A DNA stretch of 64,000 nt from an uncultured Acidobacteriia bacterium (GTDB taxonomy: Bacteria > Acidobacteriota > Terriglobia > Bryobacterales > Bryobacteraceae). Under the pieces are notes generated by a model. It ran no database searches. It was not told the origin of the DNA and saw only the letters and a list, made by a program, of their open reading frames with translations. Every line of letters begins with the position of its first letter. Within the stretch, counting starts at the first letter, position 1. Where the stretch lies: NCBI GenBank assembly GCA_903851195.1, contig CAINNJ010000010.1:62001-126000 (forward strand). The letters run 5' to 3'. A program made the position numbers and the translations under genes. This document shows, piece by piece, positions 37,156 through 41,721 of the stretch.

Positions 37156-37617
37156 ATGCAGCTGATCGCCGCGAAATCGGTAGACGAATATCTTGCGCAG
37201 GTTCCCGAACCGGGCCGCACCACATTGCTGAAGATCCGTTCGGTTATCCGTTCCGTGGTGCCGCCCGAAGCCACGGAGGCGATCAGTTACCAGATGCCCG
37301 CGTTCAAATACAAAGGCGGCCTGGTCTGCTACGCGGCATTCTCCGACCACTGCAGTTTCTTTCCGATGAATTCGACGCTTATCGCGGAATTCAGCCACGA
37401 ACTCCGCAACTATTCCACGGATAAAGGAACCATCCGCTTCCCGCTCGACAAGCCTTTACCAGCCACTCTTGTGAAGAAGCTGGTAAAGGCCCGCGTGGCC
37501 GAGAACGAAGCGAGGCAGGCTTCCAAAAAAGCCGCGCCTTCCAAAAAGTCGGCGCCGAAAAAAGCCGCCGCCGGAAAAACTACGGGGTCTCGCCGGGGGG
37601 CGGCGCATTCGGATTGA
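37156..37617 (+). CDS. DUF1801/YdhG-like protein with basic tail
   Basis: A 153-residue cytoplasmic protein. Residues 1-115 match the DUF1801 fold (VDEYLAQVP, LLKIRSVIRSVVPPEATEAISYQMPAFKYKGGLVCYAAF located at 23-62, FPLDKPLPATLVKKLVKAR). The family includes YdhG-type proteins, some reported to bind iron or act in frataxin-like roles; no function can be given here. The last 30 residues are Lys/Ala-rich (KKAAPSKKSAPKKAAAGK), resembling a nucleic-acid-binding tail. The final 38 bases overlap the convergent aldolase-like gene. Confidence 0.8.
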   Translation: MQLIAAKSVDEYLAQVPEPGRTTLLKIRSVIRSVVPPEATEAISYQMPAFKYKGGLVCYAAFSDHCSFFPMNSTLIAEFSHELRNYSTDKGTIRFPLDKPLPATLVKKLVKARVAENEARQASKKAAPSKKSAPKKAAAGKTTGSRRGAAHSD

Positions 37618-38461
37618 CCCGCTGCCCGTTGCGCGCCGGCGGCAGCCAGCCATCGTTTGACGGGCCGTTCTGGAAGAACTTCGCGTCGCCGCTCAGCCGG
37701 TGGCCCTTCGCATACAGCGCCGCATTGGCCTGGCCGAAAATCTTCCCCGCCTTCAGCACGTCGTCATGAACCTTCTGCATGAGCTGCTCGTACTTATCGT
37801 CGCTCTGCTTAAAGCCGGAAAACGAACTCAGATCGTTGTTGCCGATCAGCACCACATCCACGCCCGGCACGGATGCGATATCGAACGCGTTCGCCACGCC
37901 CGTGGGCGTTTCGATCATGATCGCCACCAGCATGTTGTCGTTGATGGTCTGGCGATACGGACCGAACCCGCCCCAGATGCTCATGGCCTGGCCGGAACCC
38001 GCGCTGCGGCGTCCGAACGGCGGATACTTCGCCCATTTCACGCCTTCCCGCGCGCGATCCACATCGTCCACCGTCGGGATGATCACCCCGAGCGCCCCGA
38101 TATCCGTGGCGTGCTGAATATGCCATTCCTGCGCGTCCGGCAGCCGGATCATCGGCGTGGCGGCCACCTTCGGACAGGCCGCGATCATCGCCTCCACGTC
38201 TTTGAACTCCAGCGTGCTGTGCTGCATTTCGAACCAGGTGTAATCGTAGTGTTTCGCGGCTTCGCAGTACGCGGCGGGGTCGGCCTTCGACTGCGTGAAA
38301 CTGAACACCTGCTTGCCTTCGAGTAACTTCTGTTTCGTCGTGTTATAAAGCTTAGGCTTTGCGGCGGACGGGCTTTGCGCGCCTGCCGGGCCGGACAAAG
38401 CGAGGCCGCACAGCAGCGCTGCGCCGGTTGCAAATCCAATGGTGATTTTGAGGGGGCTCAT
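37580..38461 (-). CDS. Exported HpcH/HpaI aldolase-family protein
   Basis: A 293-residue protein with a clear signal peptide (about residues 1-28, ending GPAGAQS) ahead of an HpcH/HpaI-type class II aldolase domain. Family features are FEMQHSTLEFKDVEAMI, PMIRLPDAQEWHIQHATDIGALGVIIPTVDDV (located about 104-135), PFGRRS, the metal-ligand glutamate in IMIETPTGVANAFDIA and GNNDLSSF where GPxDLS is usual. Normal members split 2-keto-3-deoxy acids in the cytoplasm, so export is unusual. The C-terminal tail is Pro/Asn-rich. The 3' end overlaps the DUF1801 gene by 38 bases. The cytochrome fusion is divergent 118 bases away. Confidence 0.8.
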   Translation of the reverse strand: MSPLKITIGFATGAALLCGLALSGPAGAQSPSAAKPKLYNTTKQKLLEGKQVFSFTQSKADPAAYCEAAKHYDYTWFEMQHSTLEFKDVEAMIAACPKVAATPMIRLPDAQEWHIQHATDIGALGVIIPTVDDVDRAREGVKWAKYPPFGRRSAGSGQAMSIWGGFGPYRQTINDNMLVAIMIETPTGVANAFDIASVPGVDVVLIGNNDLSSFSGFKQSDDKYEQLMQKVHDDVLKAGKIFGQANAALYAKGHRLSGDAKFFQNGPSNDGWLPPARNGQRVNPNAPPPGETP

Positions 38462-38579: not shown

Positions 38580-40838
38580 ATGCGCGTGACGACGTTTGTG
38601 CTTCTGTGTGTGCCGGTGGCCGCTTTCGCCGCGTCCGCCGACGGATCTGCCGATGCGCGGGTGGACTTCCAAAAGCAGATCCAGCCCCTCCTGGCTCAAC
38701 GCTGCCACTCCTGCCACGGCGAGGACGTGCAGCAGTCCGGCCTGCGTCTCGATAAGCGGCAGAACGCCATGCTCGGCGGCGATTACGGCCCCGTCATCAT
38801 CCCAGGCAAGAGCGCTGAGAGCAAGCTGATTCGCCGCGTCGTGAATGGCGATGGCGGCCTGCAAATGCCCCCAACAGGCCCTCTGTCGAAAGAGGAAATC
38901 GCGCTCCTGAAAGCCTGGATCGATCAGGGCGCCGACTTCCGCACCGAGATCAAAGAGGAAGCCCCGCCGCCTCCCGTCGACCCGAAAGTCACGGCCCTCA
39001 TCTCCGCCGTTCGCTCCGGCGCCGCCGCTGACGTCGAGAAACTTCTGAAAGCCGACCCCGCTCTCGTCAACTCCAAAGACCGCGCGGGTTCCACGCCACT
39101 GCACCACGCCGCCGGCTTCGGCTCGCTCGCCACCATGAGACTTCTGCTCGACAAAGGCGCCGACGTGAACGCGAAAAACCGCCGCGCCTCCACGCCCCTG
39201 CACTGGGCGATTCGCGATGAGGCCAAGGTCCGGCTCTTACTCGATCGCGGCGCTTCTGTAAACGCCAAACAGGCCGATGGCCGCACGCCGCTCTACCAGG
39301 CCGCCTCGCTCGGCAACGGCGACGCCATCCTGCGGCTGCTTCTCGACAAGGGCGCCGATCCCGCCATCGCTACCGCGAACGGCCAGACCGCTCTGATGGC
39401 GGCCTCCGGACGCGGCAACGTCGACGCCATGCGCCTGCTGCTCGAAAAGAAAGCGGACGTGAACGCGAAGAGCGGCACCGGCGCGACGGCTCTGATGGGC
39501 GCGGCGGGAAGCCGCAATCCCGCGGCGGTCCGTCTTCTGCTCGACAAAGGCGCGGACGGGAACGCGCTCACGAAGAAGAACGAATCCGCCCTCGCCAATG
39601 CGGCCACCGCCGGCGTCGAGGAATCCGTGAAACTGCTGCTCGACAAAGGCGCGAACGTCAACGTTGCCGACGACCGCGGCTACACGCCCCTGATGTATGC
39701 AGCGGCCTCCGAACTGATGCCGGCCGGCATCGTGAAACTTCTTCTCGCCAAAGGCGCCGATACCAACGCCACCGGTGAAGGCGAAACACCCCGCACGCTC
39801 GCGGCGAAACGCGGTGACACCGAAGTCGCGCGCCTGATCGGCGTCTCCGCCGACGAACGCAAGCGCGGCGGCGTGGCTCCTCTTCCGGAAGTCGCGAGTC
39901 GCGAAACATCCATTCCGCACGCCGTGGAGAAAGCTCTCGCGCTTCTCGAAAAACAGAGTCACAACTTTATCCGCATCGGCGGCTGCAACTCCTGTCACGC
40001 GCAGGATCTGCCCTCTTCCGCCGCCGCCATCGCGCGCGATCGCGGCATTCCGGCGCCCAAAGAAATTCCCCAGCTCACCGAAGCCATGAACGGCGAGACG
40101 CCCGAACGCATTATGGATTTCGGCGCCGCCAACCCCACCAGCATGGGCTGGGAAATGTTTGATCGCATCGCGAACCACACCCCGCGAGACCAGTACACCG
40201 ATGCGACCGTCTGGTATCTGAAAGCCAACCAGTCCGCCGAAGGCAACTGGAAGAGCCCCGAAGGCCGCCGCCCGCCCATGAACACGGGCGATCTGCAGAC
40301 CACGGCGCTGGCCGTCTACGCCCTGAAGAATCTGGCGCCGCCCGCCGAAAAAGCCGAGACCGCGCGGGATCTGGCCCGCGCCGCCGCGTGGCTCGAAAAA
40401 GCGCAGCCCGCGAACACGCAGGAACGGGCTTTCCAGTTGCTCGGACTCGCCTGGGCCAACGCCTCGAAGTCCGCCACCGAACAGGCCGCCCGCGCCCTCG
40501 CCGCCTCGCAGCGCGAAGACGGCGGCTGGAATCAGTTGCCCGGCATGCTGTCCGACGCCTACGCGACCGGCCAGGCTCTGTTCGCGCTGAACACCGCCGG
40601 CAACATGCGCCCCGCCGACGCCGTTTATCAGAAAGGTATCCGCTACCTGCTCCGCGCCCAGGCGACCGACGGCTCCTGGCACGTGATGTCGCGCTCCATC
40701 TGGATCCAGCCCTACTTCGACAGCGGCTTCCCCTACGAGCACGACCAGTGGATCTCCGCCGCCGGCACTGCCTGGGCATCCATGGCCCTCTCGCTCGCAG
40801 TCGAGCCCACAGCTGTCCAGGCTCTGGCGAAACGCTGA
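38580..40838 (+). CDS. Fusion of Planctomycete-type cytochrome c, ankyrin repeats and QW-repeat (cyclase-like) domain
   Basis: A 752-residue exported protein. The ATG at 38580, with GGAGGG just upstream, starts a signal peptide (MRVTTFVLLCVPVAAFAA). A PSCyt1-like cytochrome c domain (residues 28-125) has the haem motif C42-HSC-H46 and the downstream QMPP methionine region. Seven or eight ankyrin repeats cover residues 135-425 (STPLHHAAGFG, ALMAASGRGN, RLLLDKGAD). A second CNSCH motif (469-473) lies between them and a C-terminal alpha-helical region with QW-type motifs (QSAEGNW 551, QREDGGW 644, QATDGSW 694), as in squalene-hopene cyclase and prenyltransferase barrels. The catalytic DXDD of true cyclases is not seen. 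The combination suggests a periplasmic redox protein scaffolded for protein contacts. DUF4159 follows 52 bases downstream. Confidence 0.85.
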   Translation: MRVTTFVLLCVPVAAFAASADGSADARVDFQKQIQPLLAQRCHSCHGEDVQQSGLRLDKRQNAMLGGDYGPVIIPGKSAESKLIRRVVNGDGGLQMPPTGPLSKEEIALLKAWIDQGADFRTEIKEEAPPPPVDPKVTALISAVRSGAAADVEKLLKADPALVNSKDRAGSTPLHHAAGFGSLATMRLLLDKGADVNAKNRRASTPLHWAIRDEAKVRLLLDRGASVNAKQADGRTPLYQAASLGNGDAILRLLLDKGADPAIATANGQTALMAASGRGNVDAMRLLLEKKADVNAKSGTGATALMGAAGSRNPAAVRLLLDKGADGNALTKKNESALANAATAGVEESVKLLLDKGANVNVADDRGYTPLMYAAASELMPAGIVKLLLAKGADTNATGEGETPRTLAAKRGDTEVARLIGVSADERKRGGVAPLPEVASRETSIPHAVEKALALLEKQSHNFIRIGGCNSCHAQDLPSSAAAIARDRGIPAPKEIPQLTEAMNGETPERIMDFGAANPTSMGWEMFDRIANHTPRDQYTDATVWYLKANQSAEGNWKSPEGRRPPMNTGDLQTTALAVYALKNLAPPAEKAETARDLARAAAWLEKAQPANTQERAFQLLGLAWANASKSATEQAARALAASQREDGGWNQLPGMLSDAYATGQALFALNTAGNMRPADAVYQKGIRYLLRAQATDGSWHVMSRSIWIQPYFDSGFPYEHDQWISAAGTAWASMALSLAVEPTAVQALAKR

Positions 40839-40890
40839 CAAATCGCCCGGCGTTCGTCCGCCCGGATCTATAATGGACCGCGTGAGCGGA

Positions 40891-41721
40891 ATGCGAAAAA
40901 CTCTGCTGATTGTCGCGGCGGCAGCCATTGTCATGGGAACTGCCCTCGCCCGCCAGATGCCCTGGCGCGAGTATCCCGGCCAGGACAACATCGAAGTCCC
41001 GCCCGACTACCAGGAAAAGACCGAGTGGGTTTTCGCGCGCCTCATGTACCCGCCCTACCCCGGCGCCATCAACGGCCGCGGCGGCTTCCGGCGCTTCGGC
41101 GGCAACTGGAAACAGGGCCGCTCCAGCTGGACCACCGACTACAGCGCGGCCGACCGCCACGTCGCCCAGGCCGTCCGCCGTCTCACGCGCCTCCACGTCC
41201 GTTCCGTCGAACAGCCTGTCGATCTCGACGACGAAGACGACGTCTTCAACTACCCGTGGCTCTACGCCGTCGAAGTCGGCCACTGGCAATTAACCGACTC
41301 ACAGGTCAAACAGATGCGCGAATTCTTCGATCGCGGTGGCTTCTTCATGTGCGACGACTTTCACGGCACCCAGGAATGGGCCGTCTTCATGCAAACCATG
41401 CAGCGCGTTTTTCCCGACCGCCTGGTCGAAGACATCCCGAAGAACGATTCCATCTTCCACGTCCTCTACGATCTCGACGACAAATACCAGGTGCCCGGCG
41501 CGCAGTATCTCCGCAGCGGCCGCACTTACGAATTCGACGGCTACGATCCGCACTGGCGCGGCATCTACGATGACAAGCGCCGCTTAATGGTTGCCATCTG
41601 CCACGACATGGATCTGGGCGACGCCTGGGAGTACGCGGACTGGCCCACTTACGACGAAAAGTTCTCCGCCCTGGCGCTTAGAATCGCCACGAATTACATC
41701 ATCTATTCGATGACGCACTGA
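40891..41721 (+). CDS. Exported DUF4159 protein
   Basis: A 276-residue exported protein. The ATG at 40891 gives a signal peptide (MRKTLLIVAAAAIVMGTALA), and GAGCGGA is just upstream. The mature protein carries DUF4159 features: FARLMYPPYPGAINGRGG, SSWTTDYSAADRHVAQAVRRLTRL (located at about 79-102), NYPWLYAVEVGHW and FFDRGGFFMCDDFHGTQEW. In other Acidobacteriota the family is found next to MoxR-type ATPases and BatA-like proteins, but here it follows the cytochrome-ankyrin fusion and could be its partner. Biochemical function is unknown. Confidence 0.82.
   Translation: MRKTLLIVAAAAIVMGTALARQMPWREYPGQDNIEVPPDYQEKTEWVFARLMYPPYPGAINGRGGFRRFGGNWKQGRSSWTTDYSAADRHVAQAVRRLTRLHVRSVEQPVDLDDEDDVFNYPWLYAVEVGHWQLTDSQVKQMREFFDRGGFFMCDDFHGTQEWAVFMQTMQRVFPDRLVEDIPKNDSIFHVLYDLDDKYQVPGAQYLRSGRTYEFDGYDPHWRGIYDDKRRLMVAICHDMDLGDAWEYADWPTYDEKFSALALRIATNYIIYSMTH

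Follow-up and report, generated by a model that had tools for sequence, protein, structure and literature searches.

What could a bacterial protein do with a cytochrome c domain at one end, a terpene cyclase-like domain at the other and a series of ankyrin repeats between them? The question is raised by a gene in a 64-kb stretch of DNA from an uncultured Acidobacteriia bacterium, hereafter the window. An earlier note, made from the sequence, described positions 38580-40838 as a fusion of cytochrome c, ankyrin repeats and a QW-motif domain, and Pfam and motif positions bear this description out. The C-terminal part, here called the haem-toroid, turned out to be the more general finding.

Gene and Domain Organization

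The gene lies on the forward strand, as do all features of the protein given below, and extends from an ATG at 38580 to the end of the stop codon at 40838. Its 752-aa product has the order PSCyt1, ankyrin repeats and haem-toroid, as supported by the open reading frame, Pfam and the homologue alignment. The reading frame is also open 5' of the ATG, as far as 38439. Translation from 38580 gives the N-terminus MRVTTFVLLCVPVAAFA, which was judged by eye to resemble a signal peptide (putatively about aa 1-18; 38580..38633) and agrees with the starts of the homologues. Comparison with these homologues confirmed that the product is a real, widely conserved bacterial protein that looks exported. The divergent gene at 37580-38461 encodes an HpcH/HpaI aldolase family protein that also has a signal-peptide-like N-terminus; an exported enzyme of this kind would be out of the ordinary. 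No RNA families were found within the 64-kb window.

The PSCyt1 cytochrome c domain (PF07635; aa 42-100, 38703..38879) scores 62.4 bits in Pfam against a cut-off of 22 (E 6e-17) and begins with the first haem motif, CHSCH (aa 42-46, 38703-38717). C42, C45, H46 and M96 are invariant among the 18 full-length homologues aligned, and Met96, which lies in MPP, is the likely axial haem ligand. An N-terminal PSCyt1 is common to this protein and to the Planctomycete-specific cytochromes that combine PSCyt1 with PSD. In contrast to the latter, the window protein has ankyrin repeats and a haem-toroid in place of PSD, and a Pfam scan of the 752 aa found no PSD domain. As of a 2017 paper (PMC5615132), no function was known for PSCyt proteins or domains.

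The ankyrin arm occupies about aa 135-430 (38982..39869) and is above the Pfam cut-off, with an E of 2e-53. Seven or eight repeats had been proposed; Pfam, together with the helix pairs across the arm in a full-length model (pLDDT 78.7, pTM 0.77), supports about eight, with degenerate ends.

A Terpene Cyclase-Type Toroid

The C-terminal domain (aa 443-742, 39906..40805) was predicted to be an alpha/alpha toroid of the class II terpene cyclase type. An AlphaFold2 model built on 25 homologous C-terminal domains reached a pLDDT of 84.6 and a pTM of 0.87. Its best matches among solved structures in Foldseek were squalene-hopene cyclases and drimenyl diphosphate synthases. VIA-align superposed it on a drimenyl diphosphate synthase with a Z of 22.8 over 256 residues (rmsd 3.1), compared with lower values, Z 18-20, for other alpha/alpha toroids (GH105, complement C4). 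The structure check suggested by the earlier note thus agrees with a terpene-cyclase fold for this region. At the sequence level, SQHop_cyclase_N and SQHop_cyclase_C match aa 616-741 with 34.5 and 29.9 bits, respectively, against cut-offs of about 26.

The three QW-type motifs that had been noticed are present in the sequence and the alignment as QSAEGNW (aa 551-557, 40230..40250), QREDGGW (aa 644-650, 40509..40529) and QATDGSW (aa 694-700, 40659..40679), and their Q..G.W cores are invariant. As had also been noticed, DXDD is absent from the window toroid, and it is absent from every aligned toroid row. The domain therefore shares its fold, its QW-type motifs and a weak, above-cut-off Pfam match with class II terpene cyclases and squalene-hopene cyclase (PF13243, PF13249; drimenyl diphosphate synthase). 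It differs from them in lacking DXDD, in carrying a c-type haem motif, in looking exported and in having only one toroid, about 300 aa long, instead of the two-domain beta-gamma architecture. Several toroid loops are well conserved in the alignment (R-P-P; SDAYATG; QPYF-SGFP-DQ-IS). The conserved loop SRSIWIQPYFDSGFPYEHDQWIS (aa 704-726, 40689..40757) has a lowered pLDDT in both the domain model and the full-length model and is a possible candidate for a pocket or haem contact.

The Second Haem Motif

The second haem motif, CNSCH (aa 469-473, 39984..39998), had been taken for a separate site ahead of the toroid. The alignments and model place it instead inside the toroid domain, between helices 1 and 2. 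The two cysteines and the histidine are invariant in 39 of 39 diverse toroid domains. Conservation of the haem motifs, proposed earlier as a check, holds throughout the 18 aligned full-length homologues, all of which keep both CxxCH motifs. Since the CxxCH and Q..G.W cores are also invariant in 29 aligned toroid domains, the motifs of the cytochrome and toroid are not due to chance.

The toroid profile used for searching itself included CxxCH, so the search was rerun with a second profile, built from an alignment that begins after the motif. We inspected the 60 best-hit proteins, which came from the best loci and many of which are related to one another; 26 of the 28 that match at least 130 profile positions have a CxxCH shortly before the matched part, in most cases nine residues ahead of the first profile column. 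With the same motif-less profile, 25 DXDD-bearing cyclase-like proteins matched in the repeat part only, and none has the CxxCH.

Covalent haem at both CxxCH sites is suggested by these motifs, and the window genome has three Cytochrom_C_asm matches above cut-off; ResB was not found in it. No conserved distal His or Met occurs across the 39 diverse toroid domains, which agrees with an open or variable haem site. The CxxCH loop of the toroid has low confidence in the AlphaFold2 model, as would be expected where a site is modelled without its haem. Judging from the order of the helices, the haem loop and the long conserved loops may be on opposite sides of the toroid, an arrangement that would weaken the picture of a haem at the pocket.

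Distribution of the Haem-Toroid

One scan of species genomes identified 18 close homologues (L026-L043) in Bryobacterales and other Acidobacteriota MAGs. Most of them cover the whole protein, and more distant relatives were also matched. Mean column identity is 66% in the 18 aligned full-length proteins, where the QW cores are invariant and the order PSCyt1, ankyrin and toroid is found in 18 of 18. The same domain order had been proposed as something to look for in other Acidobacteriota, and many cases were found. Among 150 Bryobacteraceae genomes, at least 38 have a near-full-length protein, counting the matches listed for a full-length profile; in this set, ankyrin-toroid proteins without PSCyt1 are commoner than the full-length form. 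In a further set of loci (L105-L134), the motifs are kept wherever the full-length gene is intact. The window genome alone has five copies of the C-terminal domain: the window protein, a second PSCyt1-ankyrin-toroid, one ankyrin-toroid and two proteins of the reversed order, toroid-ankyrin.

The domain also occurs by itself. In 297 Acidobacteriota genomes, the domain profile retrieved true cyclases together with many exported-looking proteins of 250-500 aa that lack ankyrin repeats and have a CxxCH in the same place as the window toroid. Planctomycetota have stand-alone haem-toroids, matched with an E of about 1e-85, as well as toroid-ankyrin members. Stand-alone proteins such as L144, L145, L146 and L177:4215-5177 resemble the window toroid, including the place of the CxxCH, and lack both ankyrin and PSCyt1. 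A maximum-likelihood tree separates toroid-ankyrin from (PSCyt1-)ankyrin-toroid proteins as two groups, with the stand-alone forms scattered on deeper branches; in its architecture labels, L044, L121 and L081 are given without ankyrin repeats that they contain.

The haem-toroid is found both by itself and fused in three different orders, and two phyla have it; this indicates a general module and not a one-off fusion. It is probably a redox module present in at least two phyla (Acidobacteriota and Planctomycetota). Neither Pfam nor NCBIfam has a family for it. The stand-alone proteins have partial matches to cyclase models alone in Pfam and NCBIfam, below NCBIfam's own cut-offs, and consequently may carry wrong names. 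A search restricted to open-licence papers found none that combines a c-type haem motif with a terpene cyclase-type toroid. An unnamed haem-bearing toroid module is thus broader than the earlier idea of a three-part fusion.

Possible Functions

The domains, their order, fold and conservation, and the genome's cytochrome c assembly genes, are computational observations. Our general reading of them, which we hold at about even chances, is an exported dihaem c-type protein in which an electron-transfer haem is joined by an ankyrin spacer to a haem-toroid whose ligand is a small molecule or a partner. PSCyt1 would be an ordinary His/Met electron-transfer haem that hands electrons to, or takes them from, a soluble carrier. 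The ankyrin solenoid would serve as a spacer arm between the two redox ends and as a docking site for a partner. The haem-toroid would be a terpene cyclase-type barrel whose cyclase chemistry was lost with DXDD and whose covalent haem sits at the loop ahead of the second helix. Its pocket would most likely bind a small molecule or the redox group of a partner, with which the toroid haem would swap electrons. In this scheme, we infer haem attachment as well as the ankyrin role, the substrate, the spin state and which way electrons flow. A redox relay through a protein-contact scaffold, as imagined earlier, may be drawn from the same features; redox gene clusters are seen with some relatives and not with the window copy.

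A bolder version, which we regard as tentative, makes the haem-toroid an undescribed class of haem enzyme. Here, an open-coordinated c-type haem on the barrel would carry out redox chemistry on a substrate in the old cyclase pocket; the class would have expanded in Bryobacteraceae, with the ankyrin arm wiring it to a second haem. It is comparably doubtful that the toroid is a protein-docking platform with no small-molecule chemistry, its haem merely storing or passing electrons. Fusion to a plain cytochrome and ankyrin repeats would suit such a platform, as would the finding that, beyond CxxCH, the 39 diverse domains share no universal acid, His or metal site, but the conserved loops look like a pocket and not like bare scaffold.

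The remaining explanations are less probable. The toroid CxxCH could hold no haem and instead bind a metal or form a disulphide, so stapling helices 1 and 2 together; both the missing conserved distal ligand and the poorly predicted loop would fit. We consider this unlikely: a disulphide has no use for the invariant His, the proteins look exported, the host has cytochrome c assembly genes and PSCyt1 is part of the same chain. Somewhat more unlikely is a sensor or surface protein whose haem-toroid responds to a gas or to redox state, with the ankyrin arm relaying the signal to a partner. Ankyrin repeats are usual protein-binding modules, and the haem-toroid is found on either side of them, N- or C-terminal, but neither a signalling domain nor a conserved neighbour was found. 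We give the least credence to isoprenoid handling by a terpene cyclase or prenyltransferase, whether degenerate or active, in which the haem is an accessory. Squalene-hopene cyclase is indeed nearest in fold and sequence family; yet no aligned toroid has DXDD, and one toroid of about 300 aa is not a two-domain cyclase. Terpene cyclases work in the cytoplasm or membrane, unlike the exported-looking toroid proteins. If the general reading of an exported dihaem protein is true, a redox module would have been made out of a cyclase barrel, and the haem-toroid would give a first handle on the many PSCyt cytochromes of no known function.

Gene Neighbourhoods

No redox gene lies beside the window copy, and no conserved gene neighbour was found among 28 homologue loci. 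Redox genes do accompany some relatives. On contig C23 of the window genome, three haem-toroid proteins (one PSCyt1-ankyrin-toroid and two toroid-ankyrin) alternate with three di-haem proteins on a single strand, the genes touching or nearly so (L017:181-10686). The di-haem proteins have a distant match to the superfamily of MauG, cytochrome c peroxidase (CCP) and RoxA, and are the only strong matches of their subfamily in the window genome. As a general partner, this di-haem type was rejected: a haem-toroid is nearby at only 1 of 40 other di-haem loci, so the pairing is local. Elsewhere, the stand-alone haem-toroid L177:4215-5177 starts 3 nt past genes for Mo-hydroxylase FeS and FAD subunits and CoxG (L177:2383-5177). 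Some relatives are next to PSCyt/DUF1552 genes: a stand-alone haem-toroid of Planctomycetota is flanked by two DUF1552 plus PSCyt/DUF1592 pairs (L173:1605-12198), and the homologue L043 adjoins one such pair. Two homologues have a convergent gene beside them for an exported-looking protein of about 840 aa (L026:10172-12691, L033:10194-12716); the L026 copy, when scanned, had no Pfam match.

A DUF4159 gene (40873-41721) begins 34 nt downstream of the window gene, and its product had been put forward as a partner. The suggestion fails as a conserved association, as DUF4159 adjoins none of the 58 homologue genes for which 500 nt or more of downstream sequence is present. Of the eight DUF4159 genes in the window genome, only the one in the window is beside a haem-toroid; two of the eight sit next to each other on contig C66. 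In Planctomycetota, a terpene cyclase-like toroid is linked to DUF4159 in another way: in L172:1-2097, a toroid without CxxCH is followed by a C-terminal DUF4159-like domain, fused and not neighbouring. A second Planctomycetota protein (L136:1489-3558) also ends in a DUF4159-like domain, and the rest of it appears toroid-like by eye only.
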